Positions 3,467 through 15,451 of a DNA stretch of 23,795 nucleotides are shown in pieces; position 1 is the stretch's first letter, and each line of letters opens with the position of its first letter. The notes under the pieces are model-generated. The model was not told the DNA's origin. It worked only from the letters and a program-made list of their open reading frames with translations, and made no database searches. The position numbers and the translations under genes are program-made. Source of the DNA: a virus; the IMG/VR virus record IMGVR_UViG_3300034119_000279, positions 1 through 23,795 of that record. One strand, given 5' to 3'.

Positions 3467-3877
3467 GTGGGGCGCGTACGAATCCGAACCAACACCGATA
3501 CGACCGCGCAAGCAATCACCGCGACGCGCGACGACCTACGCGCGGCGTGGGCTATGGCCTGTCTCGTCCGTAGCGGGCGCCGCGTGCCGCGTTCCGTGGC
3601 CGTTGCCGTAACGGCCGACAGGCGCGCCCGTATCGACGTCTACCGAATCCTTCGCGCCATGTCGGAACGCGCGCCCCTGTCGCGGCCAACGTTTCTAGAC
3701 GCACCGACGCGCCTAACGCGGGCGCCGACGATGCCGCAAATGCTAACGATGATAGACACCCTTCGAACGACGCACGACCTAGCCGACCGCGAATTGGTGC
3801 GCGCGGCGGTGAACAATTACCGCGGCGTGATTCTCGCGAAGTTCCACCGCGAACAATCACGAAATGAGGGTGTCTAG
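3467..3877 (+). CDS. Hypothetical protein, the only supported plus-strand gene
   Basis: 136 residues from GTG 3467. The frame can be extended to GTG 3398, but that overlaps the minus-strand promoter and the intervening codons (AGG, GGA, CAT, AAT) look unlike the phage's coding bias; ATG 3554 is a shorter alternative. No start has a convincing ribosome site. The product is helical, with ATRDDLRAAWAMACLVRSGR, RARIDVYRILRAMSERAPL, MPQMLTMIDTLRTTHDLADR and a basic C-terminus. No family is recognised. It faces the tail operon and overlaps the 3' end of the tail gene by 21 bases. Candidate -10 boxes CATAAT (3416-3421) and TATTAT (3454-3459) lie upstream. Being divergent from the early promoter, it could be a regulator (inference). 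Confidence 0.55.
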   Translation: MGRVRIRTNTDTTAQAITATRDDLRAAWAMACLVRSGRRVPRSVAVAVTADRRARIDVYRILRAMSERAPLSRPTFLDAPTRLTRAPTMPQMLTMIDTLRTTHDLADRELVRAAVNNYRGVILAKFHREQSRNEGV

Positions 3878-5233
3878 AATGGTTTCGCCGCCCGCCGTGT
3901 TCGCGGGTAGCACGTAGCCATTTTCGTACATGGCAAAGAATCGGTCAAATTCGGTATTGAAAATCCCTTCGGCGTTGTTCGTGACCGTCAACCCTAGGTG
4001 GTCATTATTTACCCAATCGGTCGAACCCGCAAGGATTACGAACCCTTGCGAACCGCGCGCCGATTGCCGTACTTCGGCCAACACCAATTCGTCTAGGTAC
4101 ATGATGCCGCCCGAATTGAGCGCGGTAGTCTGTTCGACCACCGCGTATACCGTAGACGGTAGCGATAGCGGCGCGCGGAAAAACGCGTATTGCCAACCGT
4201 ACGTCGTTCCGACGGTATAGGGGAGCGAAACCGACGTACCCGATACGACGGTGCCGCTGTTGTCTTGCAACGAAACGCGCACCGTGCCCGCGCTTGCGCC
4301 CGCGTTCACACGCGCGGCAATCGCCAACACGTACAGACGGTCGGACGTAATCGCGTGCGGCGTGCCCGCGTCGGCTTGCATTTGTTGGCGAACCTTCGCA
4401 AGCGTCGAACCGTCGCCAATCATTTTGAACGCCGAACCGCCGCGGTAGGTTACGCTAGTTTCCTGCGCGAAGTGTGTACCCGCGGTGCCCGTACTCACCG
4501 TCCAATAGTCGGGGATATTCGCCGTCGTGTAATTCGTGAACGCGCCGTTTCGTAGCAATTGTTCGTAGCGCGCGCCCGTGTCTAGCGCGGCATTCAAGCA
4601 TGACATAACGAACCGCGCGCCGCTACCCGAAGGGAATCGGTAGTCAAGGTTCGTATAGGCGGCTTGCCCGCGTACCTCGAAAATCTCCGAACCGCGCGCA
4701 ATCTCGCCCGATTGCGAATCGGCGATACAACGGATTTGCAGACGTTCGGTGCGGATGTTCGGGAATTGGGTGATACCACCCTTTAGCCCTAGCGGGATAA
4801 GTTCCGTATACAACAACGTACCGTTTCCGACGTTGCCCGTACCGACGGCGATAGCACCTTTGCTAATCGTCGTACCGTCCACCGTTTCGCTGTCGTTCGC
4901 CATTTCGCGAATAAGGAATTGGATAGCGTCGCCGACAGACTTCGACGGCATCGGCGTACGCCCGCCCGCGATTGCTTCGGCGTAGCACATTTCGACCAAC
5001 GTCGATTGGGAAGCGCGGCGGATGTCGTCAAGAATCGCGCCCGCGGCGGCCACGCGTTGTTCCAATTGCGCGACCAAATCGCCGACCATATAAGAATCGG
5101 CCGAAGTGTATTCGGCTTGAATCGCGGCGATGCGCGTAACGATGTCCTGTTGGTGATTGCGAACGGCTTCGGCTAGGCCGAAGAGTTTTCCCAATCGTGT
5201 GAATAGCCCGTTGGAACCGTCGTACGTTAGCAT
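3857..5233 (-). CDS. Tail-tip or receptor-binding protein with coiled coil and jelly-roll domain
   Basis: 458 residues from ATG 5233 (MLTYDGSNGLFTRLGKLFGL), five bases after the upstream stop; upstream in-frame codons would encode an arginine-rich stretch that is clearly a shadow. Residues 15-75 are heptad-like and may form a coiled coil. Residues 90-220 are mixed. Residues about 226-388 resemble a carbohydrate-binding jelly roll: NGAFTNYTTANIPDYWTVST, FKMIGDGS, LYVLAIAARVNAG, VRVSLQDN, YGWQYAFFRAP, then an aspartate in GGIMYLDELVLAEV, the usual closing strand. The C-terminal 70 residues are unassigned. It ends the rightmost-promoted late operon, where tail fibres usually lie, so a receptor-binding role is reasonable but unproven. 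Confidence 0.72.
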   Translation of the reverse strand: MLTYDGSNGLFTRLGKLFGLAEAVRNHQQDIVTRIAAIQAEYTSADSYMVGDLVAQLEQRVAAAGAILDDIRRASQSTLVEMCYAEAIAGGRTPMPSKSVGDAIQFLIREMANDSETVDGTTISKGAIAVGTGNVGNGTLLYTELIPLGLKGGITQFPNIRTERLQIRCIADSQSGEIARGSEIFEVRGQAAYTNLDYRFPSGSGARFVMSCLNAALDTGARYEQLLRNGAFTNYTTANIPDYWTVSTGTAGTHFAQETSVTYRGGSAFKMIGDGSTLAKVRQQMQADAGTPHAITSDRLYVLAIAARVNAGASAGTVRVSLQDNSGTVVSGTSVSLPYTVGTTYGWQYAFFRAPLSLPSTVYAVVEQTTALNSGGIMYLDELVLAEVRQSARGSQGFVILAGSTDWVNNDHLGLTVTNNAEGIFNTEFDRFFAMYENGYVLPANTAGGETILDTLIS

Positions 5234-5238
5234 TCGCG

Positions 5239-5511
5239 TTACTCCGTAGGGGTAGTATCGGTGAACGGCACGGCGCGGTTTAGTGCGGCGCGACGTTCGG
5301 GGCATCGGCAATTCGGCGCGACCGCGTCCACGACGGCCGCAACGCCCGTAACCGTCGCGGCAATCGCTACGACGTCGCCTAGCCCGCGCGGCTTGCCACT
5401 ATACATTCGGCACGTATCACACTTCGGGCCGACGTCGCCGCCGACGCCCGCGTGTGTGCAGCGGGTGCCGTTCGCAAATCTGCACGGGTGGTCGTTACGT
5501 GAATGAGACAC
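5239..5511 (-). CDS. Small cysteine-containing phage protein (GLGD...ERR type)
   Basis: 90 residues from GTG 5511, overlapping the upstream gene by 17 bases; upstream in-frame sequence is shadow. The N-terminal half carries five cysteines (HPCRFANGTRC, KCDTC) that could bind metal. The C-terminal half contains GLGDVVAIAATVTGVAAVVD, then NCRCPERRAALNRAVP. The combination of GLGD, a hydrophobic helix and a C-x-C-x-ERR-x-x-LN ending matches a small protein seen in many phage genomes near tail or lysis genes, of unknown function (from memory, no search). The hydrophobic stretch is only weakly membrane-like. It lies between a cysteine-rich virion candidate and the receptor-binding candidate. Confidence 0.62.
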   Translation of the reverse strand: MSHSRNDHPCRFANGTRCTHAGVGGDVGPKCDTCRMYSGKPRGLGDVVAIAATVTGVAAVVDAVAPNCRCPERRAALNRAVPFTDTTPTE

Positions 5512-6277
5512 TAGCGGTACCCGTATACGTGTGGCGTTGCGATAGCGCGGGGTCGACGTACGTAGCGTTTTGGAGTCGTATCGGGCCAATGATCGGGTAC
5601 GCGTCCGATTCACGTAGAAAGGTAACTTCGATTCCCGCGGTTGGACAATTGCAGAGCGCGCTATCTTCAATCGGTGGCAAAGGCGCATCGCATCCCGCAC
5701 CGAATAATCCGCGAACGCGTAGCCGTGTGTTGTATTGATAGACCGACGAACACACGGCGCCATCGCCGCAACAATCGTTCAAAAAATTGATCGTATAGAC
5801 ACCCGTACCACTAAACAACGATTCTAAAAACCACGTGTTCCCGTTGACGGTGTCGCGTTGACATACGACACCGCCGAACGATATAGGCATGGTAGACGGT
5901 AGGGTTTCTACTTGACACGCAACCCACGTACCGCACGGGTAGGGTAGTTCCCTATTGAATTTCGTATCTTTTCGCCACGATACCGTCGCCGAACCTGTTG
6001 GCGGATTTGGTGGCGCTTGTCCTCCATCGACTCCGCCTAACGCGTTGAATGCCGAAGTGTAAACCACCGAAAAACTACCGCTATAGGTTATGTAATCCCT
6101 ATAGGTAACGATTTCTACCGTAGGGTGGCAAAGGTCGATTTGTTCCAACAGGTACGAACCCGAAAACGACACCGTAACCGTGACGGGGAATTGAGGGATA
6201 CAACCCTGCACCCATTGCAAACACGGGCTAGTCGCGGGGTCGGTGTTGCAGCAACACACGGCGGCTAACCGCGACAC
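5495..6277 (-). CDS. Cysteine-rich putative virion protein
   Basis: 260 residues from GTG 6277, whose G is shared with the TAG stop of the upstream gene. I count 15 cysteines, beginning with a CCC triplet at residues 8-10 and including NDCCGDGAVC and LCNCP. The rest is beta-rich and Ser/Thr-rich (FPVTVTVSFSGSYLLEQIDL, YITYSGSFSVVYTSAFNAL), as in extracellular or virion-surface proteins. No family was recognised. The many cysteines suggest disulfide stabilisation outside the cell or metal binding. Its place in the tail operon, between a small beta-sandwich protein and the receptor-binding candidate, suggests a tail-tip component (inference). The local base composition is slightly more AT-rich than its neighbours. 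Confidence 0.7.
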   Translation of the reverse strand: MSRLAAVCCCNTDPATSPCLQWVQGCIPQFPVTVTVSFSGSYLLEQIDLCHPTVEIVTYRDYITYSGSFSVVYTSAFNALGGVDGGQAPPNPPTGSATVSWRKDTKFNRELPYPCGTWVACQVETLPSTMPISFGGVVCQRDTVNGNTWFLESLFSGTGVYTINFLNDCCGDGAVCSSVYQYNTRLRVRGLFGAGCDAPLPPIEDSALCNCPTAGIEVTFLRESDAYPIIGPIRLQNATYVDPALSQRHTYTGTASVSFT

Positions 6278-8291: not shown

Positions 8292-9475
8292 TATTGAAAC
8301 CCGATAGTAGAGATAGACGCGGCTACCTTTTCGGTCGCGTCGGCGGTTCGTTCCTGCACGCGGCGTTGAACTTCCGCGGGGTACGCGTCGAACGTGAACG
8401 CACCTAGCGCGGTATTAGCCGACGCGGTGCGGTTCGCGCCTTGCGATTCTGCGGCCGCGCGTTGTTCCTGTATGGTGGATAGTTCATCCTCTAATTTAAA
8501 CCGTTCGCGCAACGCTTCGCGTTCGGCTTCGGTGGTCGCATCGCGTAGCGCCTTTTCCCGCGTCGCCGCGCGTTCGGCGCGCTCGCGTTGGTCGGCGATA
8601 TTCTTCGCGGCTTCGGTGTTGCCGTCGGCGGCGGCTTTCTCTTCCATGATGCGTAGCCGCAACAACCGTACGTCCAATTGCGCCGCCTCAATTCGCGCGG
8701 CGTTTTGTTCGGCGAGTTTCTGCGCGGCTTCGGCTTCTTGCTTCGCCTTTTCCGCCGCGGCTTCTCGCTCTTTCTGCGCGGCTTCGCGGATGGTACGTAG
8801 TCGCGTTTCTAGTTCAATTTCGGCCGCGCGTTGTTTCTCGCGGTTCAATTCAAGTAACGCGTTTAGTTCTAGGTCGGAAATGCCCTCCGCCATTCGGAAC
8901 GCTAGTTCTGTGTCCTGTTCATCCTTGACGCGTGCGGCTTCCGCGCGTACGGCCGCCTCTTCATCGCCACGCGCGCGCGTGCGTGCGATTTCGTTGGTAA
9001 CTTCTAGGCGCTCGCGTTCGCGCATAAGCGCGGTAGTAGCGTTCGCCGCGGCTTGCGCCTCTTTCTCGCGTTCACCCGCGATACGCCGCCCCGTGTCGCG
9101 TGCGGCGTTTTGCTTCGCTAGTAGGTCGTCGGCCGCCTTATCCGCGGCGCCAAACGTCGCGTCGTAAATGGCGCTACCTAGATCGGCGAAGGCGCCGACG
9201 AACGGTATCGTTTTTAGCCCGTCTAGAATCGCGTCGGGTATGGCCTTATCCGAACGCAACACGCTAGCGGCCGCCTTTGCAAGCCCCGCCGCCATCATCG
9301 GCCCCGCAATGGTGCCGACGACGCCCTTTGCCTGTTCGGAAAACTTCCCGCCGAAATCGTAGCCTAGTTTAGCGCCCTGTTGAGTAGCGATAGGCTTCGC
9401 GGCTTGCAAGCCCTTTTCTAGGCCGTCAAGTTTTGCGGTAATGTCTATGAATACTTCACCGCCTTTTTCGGCCAT
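8291..9475 (-). CDS. Tail tape measure protein, short
   Basis: 394 residues from ATG 9475, with a strong AGGTGGAG ribosome site that overlaps the upstream TAG. Residues 1-60 are MAEKGGEVFIDITAKLDGLE followed by a Gln/Ala/Lys-rich helix. A hydrophobic segment (about 52-72, VVGTIAGPMMAAGLAKAAASV) and a second one near 88-110 may enter the membrane during DNA ejection. Residues 115-360 are a long alanine-, arginine- and glutamate-rich coiled coil (AEKAKQEAEAAQKLAEQNAA is typical). Tape measure proteins run through the tail tube and set its length. At the usual 1.5 angstrom per residue, 394 residues would give a short tail of roughly 60 nm (inference). It follows the frameshifting chaperone pair, the standard position. 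Confidence 0.82.
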   Translation of the reverse strand: MAEKGGEVFIDITAKLDGLEKGLQAAKPIATQQGAKLGYDFGGKFSEQAKGVVGTIAGPMMAAGLAKAAASVLRSDKAIPDAILDGLKTIPFVGAFADLGSAIYDATFGAADKAADDLLAKQNAARDTGRRIAGEREKEAQAAANATTALMRERERLEVTNEIARTRARGDEEAAVRAEAARVKDEQDTELAFRMAEGISDLELNALLELNREKQRAAEIELETRLRTIREAAQKEREAAAEKAKQEAEAAQKLAEQNAARIEAAQLDVRLLRLRIMEEKAAADGNTEAAKNIADQRERAERAATREKALRDATTEAEREALRERFKLEDELSTIQEQRAAAESQGANRTASANTALGAFTFDAYPAEVQRRVQERTADATEKVAASISTIGFQ

Positions 9476-9485
9476 AGCGCTCCAC

Positions 9486-9701
9486 CTATCGGTTTTGAGA
9501 TTCGACCCACGCCCGCGTATTCATCGGGCTAGACGTGCGTATCAATTCGCCCCGCGCGGCTAGTTCTAGATACGCGGTGAATTCTCCAACAGGCAACGCT
9601 AGCGGGTCGGCGATATTCGCCACGGTAGACACTAGGAACGCTTCCCCTATCCAATCGCGCGCGCGTTCGCGTCGGGGTTCAACCGCGAACGGCGTACCCA
9701 T
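9486..9701 (-). CDS. Downstream part of the frameshifted tail assembly chaperone (lambda T-like)
   Basis: 71 residues counted from ATG 9701 (MGTPFAVEPRRERARDWIGE), ending 10 bases before the tape measure start. It overlaps the upstream chaperone gene by 55 bases in the -1 frame. It is probably made mainly by a -1 frameshift at 9701-9707, giving a 194-residue fusion (123 + 71 residues), as for lambda G/GT. The ATG lies directly at the slip site, so independent initiation is possible but has no clear ribosome site. The sequence ...FLVSTVANIADPLALPVGEF, then TAYLELAARGELI is typical of the C-terminal region of long chaperone isoforms, which contact the tape measure protein. Confidence 0.8.
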   Translation of the reverse strand: MGTPFAVEPRRERARDWIGEAFLVSTVANIADPLALPVGEFTAYLELAARGELIRTSSPMNTRAWVESQNR

Positions 9702-10069
9702 TTTCCCGCGTCGTTGTCCCATTCGAACCCGATGACTTGCAACGCGAGTTCCACCAACGCATCGGGCGCGATTCCGTCCAACATGGATTCGGCGCGGTCG
9801 GCGCCGACCGATTCGGTTAGCACGCGGCACGCGCCGTCGAACGTGAAACACGAACGCACTAACGACGTAGCAAGCCGCGAATCCTCGCGGGCCGTGCGTG
9901 CGCGTCGGATTGTTTCGTCGGCGTCCAATCCTAGCGCGCGGCAATCGGCGATAGCGTCGGCCGCGGCGCGTTCGGCTAACGCTGTTTGCATCGTGCAGAC
10001 TTGACGAACGGACAACGGCGGGAACCTACGTTCCACGCCGTCTACGATTGCGACCGCGTCGCCGATCAT
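9647..10069 (-). CDS. Tail assembly chaperone, upstream isoform (lambda G-like)
   Basis: 140 residues from ATG 10069, which overlaps the upstream stop as ATGA. It begins MIGDAVAIVDGVERRFPPLS, then VRQVCTMQTALAERAAADAI, and is mostly helical and acidic, ending FEWDNDAGKWVRRSR. The length and helical character fit gpG-type chaperones that coat the tape measure protein before tube polymerisation and are absent from the mature virion (family knowledge). Ribosomes that do not slip at 9701-9707 make this isoform; those that slip make the 194-residue long form. Position between the major tail protein and tape measure genes supports the call. Confidence 0.82.
   Translation of the reverse strand: MIGDAVAIVDGVERRFPPLSVRQVCTMQTALAERAAADAIADCRALGLDADETIRRARTAREDSRLATSLVRSCFTFDGACRVLTESVGADRAESMLDGIAPDALVELALQVIGFEWDNDAGKWVRRSRLNPDANARAIG
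9664..9707 (-). promoter_or_regulatory. Programmed -1 ribosomal frameshift signal: slippery heptamer plus stem-loop
   Basis: On the minus strand the heptamer GGGAAAA (9707-9701) is in the canonical phase G-GGA-AAA relative to the upstream gene, at Gly122-Lys123. After a 9-base spacer comes a perfect 8-bp stem CGTTCGCG/CGCGAACG (9691-9684 and 9671-9664) with a 12-base loop. Slipping back one base gives GGG-AAA-ATG and enters the downstream frame, which is open. The heptamer is of the same class as the GGGAAAG of lambda G/GT. The location in the tail chaperone pair just before the tape measure gene is the classic place for this signal. Confidence 0.85.
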
Positions 10070-14504: not shown

Positions 14505-14936
14505 TCACCGTTCGGGCGACCGTACCCAAATGGTAGCGCCAACATCGTCTACCGCCTTTCGACCCATTGCAGGGCGCGCTAGGTTGGCGGTTGAAATGAT
14601 GTTTGACGACGCGCTAGGGGTGCAAGTAAAGAGTAGATACCGACGGTAGCCCGCGGTATCAATATCGAACACGCAATAGGGGTTGTTCGTACCCGCGGCT
14701 TGCGCGGGGATTGTGTAATCGGTTCCGCCTGTCAACCCGCACGCGACAAACGCGGTAGCGTCGGTCGTGTCGCCGTGTTCAATTTTGAACGTAGTCGGCG
14801 CGTGCGTTGTTGACTTGAATACGGCGACGCGTACCGAATCAAATCCCTTTGTATCTACCGTGGCGGTTGCGGTTTGACTTGTAGACGTGGTACCCAATGT
14901 AAGTAGCACGGTTTTCGTGTTGCTGTTGTGTTGCAT
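14505..14936 (-). CDS. Decoration-type virion protein, paralogue 2
   Basis: 143 residues from ATG 14936, with AAAGG 5 bases upstream. It is clearly related to the preceding gene product: both share KTVLL, VDT(R/K)GFDS, (K)xEHxDTTDAT, GTD, NPxxVFDI and TAGxRRYLxFT. The protein is beta-rich and Ser/Thr-rich (TSQTATATVDTKGFDSVRVA, NNPYCVFDIDTAGYRRYLLF), small, non-enzymatic, as expected for a capsid decoration or fibre subunit. It follows the major capsid protein gene, where decoration proteins are usually encoded. Whether both copies occupy the same capsid site is not known. Confidence 0.72.
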   Translation of the reverse strand: MQHNSNTKTVLLTLGTTSTSQTATATVDTKGFDSVRVAVFKSTTHAPTTFKIEHGDTTDATAFVACGLTGGTDYTIPAQAAGTNNPYCVFDIDTAGYRRYLLFTCTPSASSNIISTANLARPAMGRKAVDDVGATIWVRSPER

Positions 14937-15010: not shown

Positions 15011-15451
15011 TTAGCGGCTAGGAACCGTAACCCAATTCGCCGCCGACAGGTCGGTGGCGCTGTCGATACCCGTCAACGGTCGGCCTAGTTCCGCGATAGC
15101 GACGACGTTCGACGTAGCCGCGGATGCGCCCGTGTAGGTGAACCGAAGGTAGCGACGTAGCCCCGCTGTCACGATGTCGAACACGGCCGACGGGTTCGTG
15201 GTCGTCGCGGTACTAGCGGCGGCGGTGAAATCGGTACCCGCTGTCGCGTTGATTGTTGCGAACGTCGTAGCGTCGGTGGTGTCGGAGTGTTCCACCTTCA
15301 ACACGGCGGGCGCGTTGGTGATGGAACTAAACACCGCGATGCGGCACGAATCGAAGCCGCGCGTATCGACGTTGGCGGTGGTCGTTGCGTTCGTTGCCAA
15401 CGATGCGCCGTTGACTAGTAGAACGGTTTTTTGGTTGGATACTTCAATCAT
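15011..15451 (-). CDS. Decoration-type virion protein, paralogue 1
   Basis: 146 residues from ATG 15451 with a strong GGAAGGGAAA ribosome site, 18 bases after the major capsid gene. It starts MIEVSNQKTVLLVNGASLAT and is beta-rich: TTANVDTRGFDSCRIAVFSS, then KVEHSDTTDATTFATINATA, SAVFDIVTAGLRRYLRFTYT. It shares the same blocks as the downstream paralogue. The Ala/Thr/Ser-rich composition is typical of small capsid-surface proteins. Strong ribosome site and position just after the capsid gene suggest high-level expression. The two copies probably arose by tandem duplication followed by divergence. Confidence 0.74.
   Translation of the reverse strand: MIEVSNQKTVLLVNGASLATNATTTANVDTRGFDSCRIAVFSSITNAPAVLKVEHSDTTDATTFATINATAGTDFTAAASTATTTNPSAVFDIVTAGLRRYLRFTYTGASAATSNVVAIAELGRPLTGIDSATDLSAANWVTVPSR

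Follow-up and report, generated by a model that had tools for sequence, protein, structure and literature searches.

The window analyzed here, a complete viral record of 23,795 bases from an uncultivated tailed phage (IMGVR_UViG_3300034119_000279), carries among its tail genes a cassette that we interpret, with a probability of about 0.93, as a programmed -1 frameshift of the lambda G/GT type that would yield a short and a long tail assembly chaperone. Slippage, its efficiency and the chaperone function are inferred. The features of the cassette and its neighbors are listed in Table 1. The majority of ribosomes would read the 0-frame to its stop and release the short protein. A minority, paused by the hairpin while their Gly and Lys tRNAs sit on G_GGA_AAA, would shift to GGG_AAA and complete a 194-aa fusion, in which 10069-9701 is joined through the -1 slip to 9701-9486. 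By analogy with lambda gpG/gpGT, both forms would use their common part to bind the tape-measure protein, and the long form, the scarcer of the two, would bring in the tail tube protein through its -1 domain. The layout proposed by the first-pass annotation was recovered in full: the in-phase heptamer of the upstream gene agrees base for base, the 9-base spacer is followed by the 8-bp stem within 9691-9664, and an ORF check returned the 194-residue long isoform (10069-9486). As also proposed, the -1 frame is open and ends before the tape-measure-like gene, with its stop at 9488-9486 and the next ATG 10 bases on, at 9475. The 0-frame stop of the window (GCG ATT GGA TAG) is embedded in the conserved -1 codons CGC GAT TGG ATA.

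Table 1. Coordinates of the putative frameshift cassette and the adjacent tail genes in the window.
Feature	Position	Strand	Basis or remark
Tail-terminator-like gene, 134 aa	11198-10794	-	Position; homologues in 21/21 loci; weak match of one homologue to a tail terminator PHROG (E 0.021)
Tail tube (major tail) protein, 147 aa	10789-10346	-	Fold resembles phage tail tubes; 4 family members match a PHROG tail protein
86-aa gene between tail tube and chaperone	10326-10066	-	Conserved in 21/21 relatives examined
0-frame ORF (140 aa) of the short isoform, a putative G-like tail assembly chaperone	10069-9647	-	Conserved family A5/A8; AlphaFold pLDDT 86; located after the tail tube gene and before the tape-measure-like gene
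Slippery heptamer G_GGA_AAA, in slippage phase	9707-9701	-	GGA = codon 122, AAA = Lys123
Spacer TGGGTACGC, 9 nt	9700-9692	-	
Predicted stimulatory hairpin, 8-bp stem CGTTCGCG/CGCGAACG	9691-9684 with 9671-9664	-	12-nt loop; positional conservation family-wide
-1 frame extension, T-like domain, slip site to stop	9707-9486	-	Conserved domain A6
Post-slip ATG, -1 frame, opening a 71-aa ORF	9701-9699	-	Candidate start, weakly supported
Tape-measure-like gene, 394 aa, downstream of chaperone	9475-8291	-	Position; homologues in 17/21 loci

Using the short protein, the fusion and the -1 domain as queries against viral contigs, we obtained 35 contigs, the window not counted, that have both frames. At the same junction, 33 of these carry GGGAAA[A/C/G] in phase and within the same gene order, which bears out the conservation of the heptamer proposed as a check by the first-pass annotation. 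Identity of the upstream protein among the related contigs falls to 17%, and the family-wide 0-frame alignment is too diverged to be used in another scan. Besides GGGAAAA, the variants are GGGAAAC (L012, L030-32, L052, L056-60) and GGGAAAG (L065), so that the final base and hence the encoded residue (Lys or Asn) vary. That GGGAAA stays constant while the residue changes is consistent with selection acting on slippage and not on the dipeptide. The 0-frame ends 0-15 nt past the heptamer in one half of the tree, where the -1 frame continues into a conserved domain (RDW..EAHLIAR...NPLDLT..EF); in the clade of the window, the 0-frame extends for another 27-51 nt. Several lineages have their 0-frame stop 0-3 nt past the heptamer and no start codon before the conserved core, which makes a fusion the simplest way to express the -1 domain.

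The lysine codon of the slip site points in the same direction. Although AAG is the dominant lysine codon in several relatives, the slip-site lysine is nevertheless AAA: this codon accounts for 1 of 62 lysines in L050, where the slip site is its only occurrence, 3 of 44 in L069, 2 of 45 in L035, 3 of 39 in L053 and 2 of 45 in L055, the slip site being among them. One possible explanation is that a separate host tRNA-Lys(CUU) would make AAG non-slippery, hence the retention of AAA.

Two relatives, represented by one contig each, have lost the GGG half of the heptamer. In L048 (GTCAAAA) and L050 (TTCAAAA), the two frames persist together with the ATG, A_AAA and stems of 9-10 bp; these contigs carry TCAAAATGG in place of GGAAAATGG (L048:1492-1512, L050:1492-1512), with Gly replaced by Ser (TCA). 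Two separate losses are needed on the tree; L069, the sister of L050, has GGGAAAA. The first-pass annotation had named relatives that keep both proteins but lose the heptamer as evidence against its prediction, and this combination was found in part, in these two contigs only. Because A_AAA, the stem and the ATG are retained, the loss looks like a lineage-specific change and not like a refutation of frameshifting in the window. Single-tRNA -1 slippage on Z_ZZN is documented for IS1222 at G_CGA_AAG (PMC5009743), making A_AAA plus stem a plausible residual site in L048 and L050. As a model for A_AAA without its GGG half, IS1222 is thus possible; it is, however, a transposase gene with A_AAG and not A_AAA, and is inapplicable to the window itself. 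It is conceivable, if somewhat doubtful, that expression of the -1 domain is changing within the family, with tandem slippage being ancestral and the TCA_AAA contigs having since adopted either single-tRNA slippage or separate initiation of the -1 product.

For the window, a separate 71-aa protein starting with the ATG at 9701, either replacing the fusion or accompanying it, is an improbable alternative. This ATG and its ORF do exist, as the first-pass annotation had pointed out in suggesting an independent product; the ATG occurs in every one of the 10 rows for the window's clade, L048 and L050 without GGG among them, and in L033 and L034 a stop and a start overlap at that place as ATGA. However, the chaperone and tape-measure starts have a Shine-Dalgarno sequence and the post-slip ATG has none at a usable distance, its GGGA lying just 2 nt away and none being found in L048 and L050. 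Within the window's clade, the 0-frame stop is located 27-51 nt past the ATG, unfavorable for reinitiation. Moreover, L012, L030-32, L053/L055 and L065 contain no ATG, GTG or TTG in the first 12 -1 codons, yet keep the heptamer and the -1 domain. The ATG also cannot explain AAA in L035, L053 and L055, in which this codon is retained at the slip site and no ATG results. As the 0-frame reads AAA-TGG (Lys-Trp), the post-slip ATG is a by-product. With its Shine-Dalgarno sequence poorly placed and a start codon lacking in several heptamer-bearing lineages, we rejected separate initiation as the main mode; a separate 71-aa product, weakly supported, is not the conserved mode across the family, but may be made, with low probability, within the window's clade.

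Programmed frameshifting, our preferred reading, was also weighed against chance expectation within the window. GGGAAAA is not rare alone, with eight copies on the minus strand, and in-phase GGGAAA[A/C/G] was seen three times across all window genes vs. 0.76 expected. At the other two in-phase sites, the -1 frames span 6 and 54 codons and the 0-frame goes on for 139 and 200 codons. Since GGA represents 7.5% of Gly codons, the probability of G_GGA_AAA given Gly-Lys is approximately 1%. The hairpin had an unremarkable minimum free energy (MFE z = +0.58), but such z-scores are uninformative in this G+C-rich window and a background-position control was therefore used instead. The direct stem search gave P = 0.08-0.12 against shuffles and, with the remaining positions of this contig as background, P = 0.018. 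The spacing of the stem agrees with the roughly 5-9 nt expected between a slippery heptamer and its 3' stimulator. By itself, the stem of the window is modest and suggestive (P 0.02-0.12), and the earlier statement that three elements agree independently was overstated in this respect.

The stem becomes significant through its conservation across relatives. We searched for stems 3-11 nt past the site in 15 representative lineages, taking all other positions of the same contig as background, and obtained P<0.04 in 11 of them. The combined Fisher P over the 15 lineages was 1.4e-13, a value that is optimistic because the lineages share ancestry. The arms differ in sequence between lineages, as in GCCGTTCGCG/CGCGAACGGC (L010), GCCGCTCG/CGAGCGGC (L069), AGTCGCGACT/GGTCGCGACT (L012) and AGTCCCTCGGTGCC/GGTGCCGAGGGACT (L052), yet their distance from the site is equal. 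The 3' arm uses the RDW-coding bases in L012, L030 and L050 and lies upstream of those bases in the clade of the window. With the same search, L053/L055 had no stem and the stems of L028, L034 and L065 were no better than their contig background. Stem conservation in relatives, another check proposed by the first-pass annotation, was thus observed in most lineages. A chance origin of the heptamer and the stem, with no expression of the -1 ORF by slippage, is highly improbable and was rejected: the window does contain in-phase GGGAAA[A/G] elsewhere with no long -1 frame to follow, and its stem is marginal when taken alone, but the heptamer, the AAA codon, the stem position and the -1 domain are all conserved in strongly diverged lineages.

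The genomic context agrees with that of a tail chaperone. Across the 21 loci compared, we found a conserved order consisting of a tail-terminator-like gene, the tail tube gene, the 86-aa gene, the chaperone with its -1 ORF and a short tape-measure-like gene, with homologues of the first three in all 21 loci and of the last in 17. The G/GT gene order of tail tube, G/GT and tape measure is therefore present, with the tube recognized by fold (model pLDDT 64; best fold matches, phage tail tubes) and the tape measure mainly by position. For two homologues of the tape-measure-like protein, weak hits to tape-measure PHROGs were obtained (E 0.0018 and 0.013). The central proposal of the first-pass annotation, a canonical -1 cassette giving short and long isoforms at the tail-chaperone position, is supported by conservation of the heptamer, its phase, the stem position, the open -1 frame and the gene order. 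The 86-aa protein has a conserved N-terminal motif, DDW[IL]V[ST]. The tape-measure-like protein is very short, at 394 aa in the window and 323-418 in relatives. Tape measures scale at approximately 0.15 nm per residue, from which a tail of about 50-60 nm would be expected in the window if this protein is a tape measure.

Other regions of the window, all on the minus strand, also drew attention. In the 942-aa ORF at 20442-17614, the N-terminal portion matches portal proteins and residues 754-938 match Mu F-like head-morphogenesis proteins, so that it is an apparent portal-minor head fusion. Past the major capsid gene, the adjacent genes 14505-14936 and 15011-15451 both match phrog_5707, in an apparent tandem duplication. 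A methyltransferase-domain gene (14426-13233) is located inside the head-tail module, between capsid and adaptor genes, and shows a weak glycosyltransferase PHROG match near its C-terminus. In the tail region, a 260-aa ORF (6277-5495) is strikingly cysteine-rich; around it, ORFs 5239-5763 and 3857-5311, whose starts are tentative, overlap.

Searches for the identity of the chaperone gave little. PHROGs returned no match and Pfam no convincing match for the chaperone or its relatives, tblastn on reference phages matched neither the chaperone nor the -1 domains of two relatives, and no relative was found in the genome contigs searched. A search of Rfam gave no match. With the chaperone model (pLDDT 86), the best Foldseek match was an unnamed phage protein (E 0.0019), none being below E 0.001; annotated tail assembly chaperones were among the non-significant matches, and the PDB fold search produced no usable match. 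G proteins are very diverse. With the chaperone invisible to Pfam and PHROGs, it is the frameshift itself that identifies the gene.

The kind of signal described here is well known; the phage family is otherwise poorly annotated. Our analysis extends the conserved tail-chaperone frameshift to a family in which the chaperone escapes Pfam and PHROGs. The family also constitutes a natural series, with GGGAAAA, GGGAAAC, GGGAAAG and TCAAAA sites, 0-frame stops 0 to 51 nt downstream, and stems ranging from none to 14 bp, on which one could test what a bacterial -1 site requires. The slippery site of lambda is GGGAAAG, and that of the window is GGGAAAA. As in lambda gpG/gpGT, the -1 ORF overlaps the upstream ORF and ends before a tape-measure-like gene; the family differs by clear hairpins in most lineages and in that no relation to named chaperones could be detected by sequence or fold. 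Counterparts of the lambda frameshift are conserved among dsDNA phages with long tails (Levin 1993; Xu, Hendrix and Duda 2004, reviewed in PMC5009743). G-T frameshifts are also reported for the haloarchaeal siphoviruses HCTV-1 (G_GGA_AAC) and HCTV-5 (G_GGA_AAG) (PMC5009743). Although their hosts are archaeal and the likeness seen is one of heptamer type, these are the heptamers found in our relatives L012/L030 (AAC) and L065 (AAG).
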